DNA of 17,174 nucleotides from positions 1,008 to 18,181 of the forward strand of contig DOIX01000032.1 of NCBI GenBank assembly GCA_003511885.1, read 5' to 3'. This DNA comes from Cyanobacteria bacterium UBA11153 (GTDB lineage Bacteria > Cyanobacteriota > Cyanobacteriia > Cyanobacteriales > Coleofasciculaceae). Below, in pieces: positions 3,214 through 4,728 of the stretch (position 1 is its first letter; each line of letters starts with the position of its first letter). A model generated the notes under the pieces. The model did not search any database, was not told the DNA's origin, and saw only the letters and a program-made list of their open reading frames with translations. The position numbers and the translations under genes were made by a program.

Positions 3214-3570
3214 TCAAGGATTTGAGCGATCGTATTTTATCCAATCTGCCAAAGCGGCGATCGCAAAACTGGCGGCAGGATGGTTAATTAATTGCGCGAA
3301 AGCTTCAGTACTTCCAGCTTTTAAAGCACTAATTACTTTTTGGTAAAGTGTGGGATTGTTTTGAATCCGTTGGATAGCTGCCCTCCCAATTTCTTCGGGA
3401 GTACTATGAGGCGGAGAAGATTGGGATATCTCGGCGAGTATCTGCTTAATTTCTATGGCAGTTTCACGAACAAATGAGTTACTATTGGTAACATTCATTG
3501 TATTATTGTTCCCCAGTTGAGTTTGCGAGTTAAAAGTTGGGTTTTGTAAATTAAATTGACTGCTTTCCAC
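3214..3570 (-). CDS. 118-aa protein with N-terminal RHIM-like motif and C-terminal helical module
   Basis: No named family recognised. The N-terminal 30 residues are rich in Asn, Gln, Ser and Thr and contain NPTFNSQTQLGNNNTMNV (10-27). Its core QLGNNNTMNV fits the RHIM amyloid pattern Q-[ILV]-G-x-x-N-x-M-x-[VIL]. After a linker (to about 58), a helical module TPEEIGRAAIQRIQ...ALKAGSTEAF..LINHP (58-115) resembles small modules I recall from C-termini of cyanobacterial effector or pentapeptide-repeat proteins; I could not verify this. The start is GTG at 3570, five bases after GGAGGT. That SD is embedded in the last codons of the 384-aa gene, whose TAA ends three bases before the GTG, so translation is tightly coupled. 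The upstream protein carries a matching motif at its C-terminus. Function unknown; a signalling or oligomerisation role is inference. Confidence 0.8.
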   Translation of the reverse strand: MESSQFNLQNPTFNSQTQLGNNNTMNVTNSNSFVRETAIEIKQILAEISQSSPPHSTPEEIGRAAIQRIQNNPTLYQKVISALKAGSTEAFAQLINHPAASFAIAALADWIKYDRSNP

Positions 3571-3573
3571 GAT

Positions 3574-4728
3574 TTACCTCCAGTTAAATAAACGTTGTAT
3601 GTTGTTTTCTCCAATGACTGTTGGCGCATTGAAAATCGGTCTGTCGAAGTGATATTCTGCTTTACCAAAAATACTAATAGCAGAAATACCAGCGACTTGG
3701 AATACTTTAAAGACAGCAGCGCCGATTACGGAATTGACTAAGGCATTGGTTGCTGTTTGTTTAATTTGTTCAAATAAGGGTTGAGAAGTGGGTGTTGTTC
3801 CTCGTTGCTGTTGCTGTTGTTGCTCGTAAAATATTTGTTGCCAGATGGCACTGATATTCTGTTGCAGATTAAAGGCAATTTGATAGTTAGTTTGATTAGG
3901 TTGTGTCAAAAGCATCATCTTGGCTTGCTCGAAAGCAAATAGAGATGCTTCATAATTTCTAGAGAAATAATGAATTTCGGCAATGCCAATTAATGAGAGG
4001 AAAAAGATTGTGGAGTTACCGCAATAATAGGCTATTTGATAAGCTTCTAGGTATAATCGCAGTACATCAGTTACATATTGTGAAGAGAATCTAGAAGTAT
4101 TTGCCGCATTGAGAATAATCTGGGCTTTGAAATTGGCATCAACTATATTGGGATTATTGCAGAGAATATAAGCTCTATAAAGTAATGTAGCAGCGCTCTC
4201 GCTATCTCCGTTGCTTAACCAAATATTACCAATAGCAGATAGACAGTGAATTAACTCATACTGATAATTTTGCAAAAAACTATGGTAATAAGCCTTTTGA
4301 TAAATTTCAAAGGCATATTGGATATTTCCTTGTTCGATATATTCTAGGCAGGAGAATATCCACTGTCTGACAGAATTGATATCTGAAGTAAAGGTATTGT
4401 ATTCTCTGACTTTTTGAGTTAAGAAATTAAAGATATCATTGATATATGTAACGCTAAGTTTGCAAACTTCTAGACCAAAGTAAATCATGACTTCATTTGA
4501 CTGAAGTCGCTCGTTATCTCTGAAGTTAATGGTAGGGAGTAGTAAATTTTCATTTTGCCAAAGATAGTCCCGGAGTTGTTGGGTATATGTAACAAGAGTT
4601 TGACCTGATTCTGGTGGAGGTTGCTTGAATATTATGTCTATAATATTACGTTCATCGGGTGCAGTGGCGGCTTGGACTATTCCTGCACCTACTTCGATTT
4701 GAATTAATGTTCCGTCGGGTTGCCACAT
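3574..4728 (-). CDS. 384-aa helical-repeat (TPR-like) protein with C-terminal amyloid-like motif
   Basis: No named family recognised. Residues about 120-305 form helix pairs of TPR type (SCLEYIEQGNIQYAFEIYQKA, CLSAIGNIWLSNGDSESAATLL, SLIGIAEIHYFSRNYEASLFAF). A polyglutamine run (303-308) and linker follow, then a hydrophobic, Gly/Ala-containing segment (about 329-355) that could enter a membrane. The C-terminal tail RPIFNAPTVIGENNIQRL (363-380) aligns with the N-terminal motif of the next gene's product. The first 110 residues contain no recognised domain. Domain order (sensor-like repeats, hydrophobic segment, terminal motif) recalls bacterial amyloid-signalling proteins, but no NTPase or known effector domain is visible. 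The start ATG lacks a clear SD. The gene is coupled to the downstream 118-aa gene (3-bp gap, SD inside its last codons). Confidence 0.85.
   Translation of the reverse strand: MWQPDGTLIQIEVGAGIVQAATAPDERNIIDIIFKQPPPESGQTLVTYTQQLRDYLWQNENLLLPTINFRDNERLQSNEVMIYFGLEVCKLSVTYINDIFNFLTQKVREYNTFTSDINSVRQWIFSCLEYIEQGNIQYAFEIYQKAYYHSFLQNYQYELIHCLSAIGNIWLSNGDSESAATLLYRAYILCNNPNIVDANFKAQIILNAANTSRFSSQYVTDVLRLYLEAYQIAYYCGNSTIFFLSLIGIAEIHYFSRNYEASLFAFEQAKMMLLTQPNQTNYQIAFNLQQNISAIWQQIFYEQQQQQQRGTTPTSQPLFEQIKQTATNALVNSVIGAAVFKVFQVAGISAISIFGKAEYHFDRPIFNAPTVIGENNIQRLFNWR
3576..3581 (-). promoter_or_regulatory. SD of the 118-aa gene embedded in the upstream stop region
   Basis: The minus strand reads TGG AGG TAA at the end of the 384-aa frame. 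The GGAGGT inside it sits five bases before the GTG start of the 118-aa gene. Ribosomes finishing the first gene are placed to start the second, implying matched synthesis of the two proteins. Confidence 0.75.

Follow-up and report, generated by a model that had tools for sequence, protein, structure and literature searches.

Matched terminal motifs in a coupled cyanobacterial gene pair and recurrence of this layout around a widespread small domain

Matching amyloid-like tails on the products of neighbouring genes have been described for systems containing NOD-like receptors (NLRs) (PMC7889193; PMC8086366; PMC12261475), and templated cross-beta assembly, known for fungal systems, has been proposed in the available text of PMC7889193 for the bacterial amyloid signalling (BASS) motifs. 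Here, we describe a gene pair from Cyanobacteria bacterium UBA11153 (assembly GCA_003511885.1, contig DOIX01000032.1, positions 1,008 to 18,181; this whole stretch of 17,174 nucleotides is the window) in which a 384-aa protein (3574..4728, minus strand) and the 118-aa protein encoded just downstream (3214..3570, minus strand) carry one motif at opposite termini, at residues 363-380 (3589..3642) and 10-27 (3490..3543), respectively. By sequence comparison, the motifs match, the genes are tightly coupled, and the arrangement recurs with other motifs and other upstream proteins. We propose, with moderate confidence, that the two genes form one module: a sensor-type protein and a small adaptor would find each other by their matching motifs, through templated amyloid-like assembly, and signal via a shared output domain.

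The 384-aa gene ends in TGG AGG TAA, followed by the three bases ATC and the GTG start codon of the 118-aa gene, and the Shine-Dalgarno (SD)-like TGGAGG of the small gene (3577..3582, minus strand) encodes the final WR of the 384-aa protein. The open reading frame (ORF) coordinates, the 3-base spacing, the SD inside the preceding gene's end and the letters of both motifs are exactly as the initial annotation had them. The GTG start is trusted because GGAGG precedes it and four homologues (P0008, P0010, P0011 and P0012) begin at the identical place. P0009, a database entry of the same 118-aa protein, starts later, inside the gene, and has lost the motif; the start choice of gene callers may hide such N-terminal motifs. 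Four members of the family of the 384-aa protein (the TPR family) end in NW[RS], which in the window overlies the SD-like element of the next gene (3574-3585) and may be conserved at the DNA level rather than in the protein.

The best local alignment of the two full-length window proteins joins residues 357-382 (3583-3660) to residues 4-29 (3484-3561) over 26 residues with a score of 52, which was reached by 0 of 10,000 shuffles of the termini and 12 of 2,000 shuffles of the whole proteins. Three orthologous pairs also align best, over their full lengths, at these termini (score reached by 5, 0 and 7 of 10,000 terminal shuffles). Four of four pairs thus beat their shuffles on the termini, which bears out the claim that two coupled genes share a motif at opposite ends of their products. 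One of these pairs, P0003/P0011, is more alike than the window pair (PIFNAPTVIGDNN vs PIFNGQTQIGDEN). One of the three has consecutive locus tags (VKL59_12115/12120) in a named metagenome-assembled genome, and in the remaining two the genes are putative neighbours. A profile of five small-protein N-termini, run against the whole own genome in six frames, found itself (1.3e-16) and the C-terminus of the 384-aa protein (E 0.015), with no further match up to E 10, and a pooled profile found only the two motif copies below E 0.5 (both part of the model). The motif is kept in seven of the eight full-length TPR-family members, window protein included, with eight positions invariant in the 7 sequences; P0026 ends before the motif region. 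Among the small proteins, the window protein carries it, as do the closest four (P0008, P0010, P0011 and P0012) of 16 other homologue matches, a count that leaves out P0009 as the own protein with a later start. The motif-less members P0013-P0023 (11/11) score 18-28 against four TPR-family tails, and the four true pairs 37-63.

Behind its motif, the 118-aa protein consists of a conserved domain (~residues 38-109, SALKAG...NHPAASF, 3244..3459) that appears helical from its sequence; these final ~75 residues make up a domain that neither Pfam nor NCBIfam names and that is widespread in cyanobacteria, with hits in 140 of 291 genomes of the order (E 0.001) and 120 of 388 of the class (E 1e-8). For other loci, the N-terminus of each standalone small-domain gene was compared with the C-terminus of the protein encoded just upstream, where any ORF of 80 aa or more on the same strand, no further than 300 nt away, counted as the upstream gene. 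First-set loci were picked from an order-wide domain list, most by frame length, before their neighbours were viewed; 62 domain hits gave 28 with an upstream ORF, 33 without (fused included) and 1 skipped, and L073, a masked and incomplete locus, was dropped from the count. The cognate tail ranked top of all 28 tails in 11 loci and was tied in one (L135). At gaps of up to 75 nt, 12 of 16 loci match (11 of 15 without the window; p 0.001-0.006, 1,000 shuffles), namely L031 (the window), L063, L116, L118, L119, L128, L131, L135, L136, L142, L152 and L153; L127 had matched via a mis-chosen start and was removed. The tails differ from locus to locus, for example NPQFAGGYTEQGNVYTGSVNN / NPQFAGGYTEKGDVHTGQVNF in L128 and INKSDNPNINIAQDDSQIKTNQ / INKSNNPNINIAQDNSRIETNQ in L116, and in L118 and L119 the matched strips are Gly/Asn repeats. 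L063, from the window's own genome (G000:C259, ~4950-5804), is a second matched-tail pair there, in which a 155-aa protein of low complexity and a small-domain protein of 122 aa carry the tails HIGNICCGGVNGDPGTIQ / KVGNVIAGDVHGNPTAIQ, with a cognate score of 54, the best of 28 tails.

A second set of 20 loci held 9 with an upstream gene, all at gaps of 93-285 nt and none within 75 nt, and is therefore no test of the 75-nt rule; L167 and L168, whose match by inspection runs through a HEAT-like segment, were kept out of the count. We chose the 75-nt limit after the first set and fixed it before the last, for which a match was to reach p<0.01 in shuffles and score better than every non-cognate tail. 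The last set comprised 27 loci among the matches listed in a class-wide search, with a frame of at most 145 aa, leaving out three short ones (80-94 aa) and five seen earlier; 2 had no small ORF (L174, L177), 6 had no upstream gene, 13 lay within 75 nt and 6 further apart. Eight of the 13 reached p<0.01 (L176, L179, L180, L181, L193, L195, L197 and L199). Other adjacent gene pairs in the same loci did so in 2 of 75 cases, under slightly different settings (ORFs from 100 aa, 45 residues, 1,000 shuffles), and one of the two is L158, itself a small-domain locus. There, at L158:3746-6883, a small-domain, a pentapeptide and an early-ending P-loop protein all carry versions of one motif (by inspection); the P-loop fragment matches nSTAND3 below cut-off and ends near a transposase-like stretch. 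Since L179/L180 (in one genome) and L197/L199 are near-copies, independent events are fewer than these counts. The adjacent-gene motif logic of BASS, invoked by the initial annotation for the window, thus recurs in the small-protein family with other motifs.

The upstream partners vary in type. A Pfam scan covering 18 of the 20 matched upstream proteins (all but L063 and L180) found DUF6232 in 9 (L118, L119, L135, L142, L176, L179, L181, L193 and L195), FHA in 3 (L128, L136 and L153), pentapeptide repeats in L116, HEAT in L197 (cut by the contig end), NACHT above cut-off plus HEAT in L199 (its N-terminus lies beyond the fetched stretch), a narrowly sub-threshold SBP_bac_3 in L131 and TPR below cut-off in the window protein, with no Pfam match in L152. 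At sequence level, the motif logic is linked to a P-loop fragment in L158, whose STAND-type match stays below cut-off, and to a NACHT-HEAT protein in L199. In the window partner, a FlhA cytosolic D1-like alpha/beta domain (~residues 4-111, 4396..4719) precedes a TPR-type helical solenoid (~residues 113-302, 3823..4392), both assigned by fold match, and a hydrophobic segment lies directly before the motif (residues 335-353, 3670..3726). The small domain itself often closes longer proteins at their C-terminus, mostly behind a Gly/Asn-rich strip, and Pfam scans of examples place it at the end of CHAT, Roc-COR and pentapeptide proteins; in L059, the protein of Roc-COR type has proline-rich TRGEKL repeats. 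In L064 two strip copies lie in one chain where L152 has two genes instead (by inspection), and the L064 chain is a fusion of the kind that links partners.

In the proposed module, the upstream protein, with its FlhA-like head, TPR solenoid and hydrophobic segment, would be triggered or clustered, its C-terminal motif would then take a cross-beta (amyloid-like) form, and this would template the N-terminal motif of the 118-aa protein and so gather many copies of the conserved domain. The gathered domain could engage other carriers of the same domain (CHAT, Roc-COR and pentapeptide proteins), with an abortive or defence-type response as the outcome; the motif would provide specificity and the conserved domain a constant output plug. 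By analogy with the described systems, the like-by-like recognition probably proceeds through templated cross-beta assembly, and the FHA, SBP_bac_3-like and NACHT partners suggest the direction from upstream sensor to downstream adaptor, though the hydrophobic segment leaves room for the reverse, in which the upstream protein may be the effector. More tentatively, and somewhat short of an even chance, cyanobacteria may have a previously undescribed, motif-swappable signalling scheme. In it, one unchanging small adaptor domain would have very different partners from locus to locus (DUF6232, FHA, pentapeptide, NACHT-HEAT or FlhA-like/TPR proteins), joined to each by a private prion-like motif; born by junction duplication and co-diverging, these motifs would give a cell many insulated amyloid wires into a common output domain.

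A number of results weigh against this interpretation. For the three orthologous pairs, shuffles of whole proteins reached the score in 300, 0 and 243 of 2,000 cases, and when position is ignored two of the four pairs are not significant. The reverse profile, built from seven TPR-family C-termini, found in the own genome itself and three weak sites, not the small protein. P0025 (40% identical) keeps the protein and has a different tail without the motif, and no motif-bearing small partner for P0005, P0006 or P0007 was found among the small-protein homologue matches. These two findings go against the motif conservation and the gene co-occurrence by which the initial annotation's claim was to be judged. 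Within 75 nt, L124, L130, L133 and L137 of the first set do not match, and L183, L185, L187, L190 and L192 of the last set fail the shuffle test; the full pre-set rule was met by only 3 of the 13 later loci (L176, L195 and L197), L179 and L180 being tied with other tails and L181, L193 and L199 scoring below another tail. At larger gaps, the cognate tail ranks first in 0 of 11 first-set loci, and the tails match in 1 of 9 second-set (L155) and 1 of 6 last-set loci (L184). Amyloid formation and output via the conserved domain are predicted steps, and RHIM is matched in one of ten termini, below threshold.

That match is of Pfam RHIM (PF12721) to the N-terminus of P0012 (E 0.0022, 17.9 bits, cut-off 20; E 0.01 with the whole P0012 protein). 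No match was found in the other 9 of the 10 termini scanned, the window's two included, and no terminus reached the curated cut-off of 20 bits, so the 'RHIM-like' label of the initial annotation is supported only in part. The small-protein side does resemble RHIM, the RHIM-related BASS3 and fungal PP motifs in its [VT]-Q-[IL]-G-x-x-N-x-M pattern; unlike these, the TPR-side core reads T-V-I-G. The RHIM core has Q in its second position. That departure, together with the Gly/Asn repeat strips of L118 and L119, which could stack as short beta-solenoids, would suit a pairing of another kind, in which the motifs form a finite beta-arch or beta-solenoid contact and hold a stable two-protein complex without templated polymerisation. 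We give this contact a minor share of the probability: likeness of the two motifs is a requirement of templating, not of a mixed socket, and the described neighbouring-gene cases are proposed amyloids (PMC7889193).

Unlikely, too, is an effector role of the upstream protein, in which its hydrophobic segment would perforate membranes once its C-terminal motif is templated and the 118-aa protein would act as trigger or inhibitor, in a BELL-like order with the motif at the C-terminus of the effector. In its favour, the window protein has its hydrophobic stretch (Kyte-Doolittle (KD) 1.77) directly before the motif, BELL proteins have a hydrophobic helix and a C-terminal motif (PMC7889193), and a hydrophobic peak after residue 300 occurs throughout the family, at borderline values (KD 1.47-1.88 in P0001-P0007) and beginning earlier, at residues 307-325, in P0003, P0004, P0005 and P0007. 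Partners elsewhere, however, look sensor-like (FHA, NACHT-HEAT and the sub-threshold SBP_bac_3), and what stays constant is the small domain, which also occurs fused to CHAT; both points speak against this reading. A general membrane partner was rejected as evidence either way, a hydrophobic window being present in 16 of 20 matched upstream proteins but also in 6 of 9 unmatched ones.

The origin of the motif pairs was approached by comparing the two copies codon by codon in 21 loci (the 20 matched plus L184), using the proportions of synonymous (pS) and nonsynonymous (pN) differences. The peptide is kept better than the DNA, with pooled pS 0.61 vs pN 0.30, where pN is biased low as the blocks were chosen for peptide similarity; the window pair gives pS 0.84 and pN 0.45, and pS exceeds 0.5 in 18 of 21 loci. 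L131 (pS 0.08), L119 (0.15) and L116 (0.29) look young at the DNA level, which suggests that new matched motifs arise when sequence is duplicated locally across the gene junction; pS lies below pN in L119 and L131, a result that weighs against the proposed module. These three recently duplicated-looking loci are also what one would expect were matching tails functionless relics of such tandem duplication, a reading we consider quite improbable, as the peptide match persists in the 18 loci of high pS, eight TPR-side motif positions are invariant, and other adjacent pairs so rarely match. The SD-like element of the next gene encodes the terminal WR, which might suggest that a nucleotide signal for translational coupling produced the match as a side effect. 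This is very improbable, since the SD overlaps the final codons only and the 18-residue motifs lie 45 nt apart and differ synonymously (pS 0.84).

Like the BASS of NLR-associated amyloid signalosomes, which come in many motif families in filamentous bacteria and place one motif at the C-terminus of one gene product and the N-terminus of its neighbour (PMC7889193; PMC8086366; PMC12261475, available text), the window pair has the same motif in adjacent genes at opposite termini. It differs in having no NLR (NB-ARC/NACHT STAND) partner, although one is present at the related locus L199, in carrying the N-terminal copy on a small-domain protein, in upstream partners among which DUF6232 and FHA proteins predominate at related loci, and in an amyloid character that here is predicted. 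A Pfam scan found no NTPase family in either window protein, in agreement with the initial annotation, and no effector domain; the pair is not filed as BASS because it contains no NTPase. In being without enzymatic match and common to several cyanobacterial protein types, CHAT, Roc-COR and pentapeptide proteins included, the small domain is like the effector-associated domains (EADs) of conflict systems of multicellular bacteria (PMC7159879; PMC8195603), which, in the available text, differ in that pairing here is via variable terminal motifs and not via two domain copies in the pair. No Pfam model exceeded its cut-off over the small domain in the scanned proteins, some published EAD alignments possibly lying outside Pfam. 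What is new appears to be the matched-tail pair without an NLR, adjacent-gene matched tails as such being already known: a word search of open-access literature gave no description of NLR-free matched-tail pairs in cyanobacteria, with the founding BASS paper outside its scope, the unnamed domain unsearchable by word and an earlier description possible, and no paper naming DUF6232.

The 384-aa protein is not a FlhA and has a D1-like domain only. Over ~108 N-terminal residues it shares the fold and a weak sequence similarity with the cytosolic D1 of FlhA (FHIPEP); unlike FlhA it has no transmembrane export gate, and its D1-like domain is fused to TPR repeats. The link rests on the fold match and two weak Pfam hits, FHIPEP reaching at best 16.3 bits over part of its profile (cut-off 29.1 bits); against it, FlhA was absent from the matches up to E 10 when the N-terminal domain was searched as a profile against the PDB, and hhalign gave the FlhA match a probability of only 4%. 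FHIPEP had no match in 11 genomes, the own genome among them. The FHA partners of L128 and L153 also match Yop-YscD_cpl below cut-off; this and the FlhA-like head of the window partner are both likenesses to cytosolic domains of secretion gates. Full-length TPR-family relatives were absent, besides the own genome, from 388 genomes of the order (20 others match over the solenoid alone, at 19-31 bits) and from 20 genomes of the family, as well as from 61 genomes of another family (no positive control there) and from the GTDB contigs, plasmids and viral contigs searched, and the N-terminal domain alone was found in 1 of 243 genomes, the own. Relatives of this family are rare. Two flavobacterial matches to the motif DNA pattern over GTDB contigs were taken as chance; one lies within a repeat, and for the other no ORF is listed on its strand.

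A separate STAND protein reported nearby by the initial annotation is present, as an NB-ARC/WD40 gene at 6927-10799 on the opposite strand to the pair, and the pooled-profile search found no copy of the motif in it; in-frame tandem repeats of the GEGGEVELLPSPHRR type at 9667-9858 break its WD40 region. Between it and the pair lie three small genes without a Pfam family (4958-5236, 5375-6109 and 6255-6548), the 244-aa product among them looking lipoprotein-like.

If the proposed module is correct, paired terminal motifs extend beyond NLR receptors and would be a general wiring principle, with specificity in a tail of 20-30 residues and output in a single common domain. How amyloid signalling keeps its specificity could then be tested directly on the naturally occurring pairs, and the widespread unnamed domain and DUF6232 would gain a first functional hypothesis.
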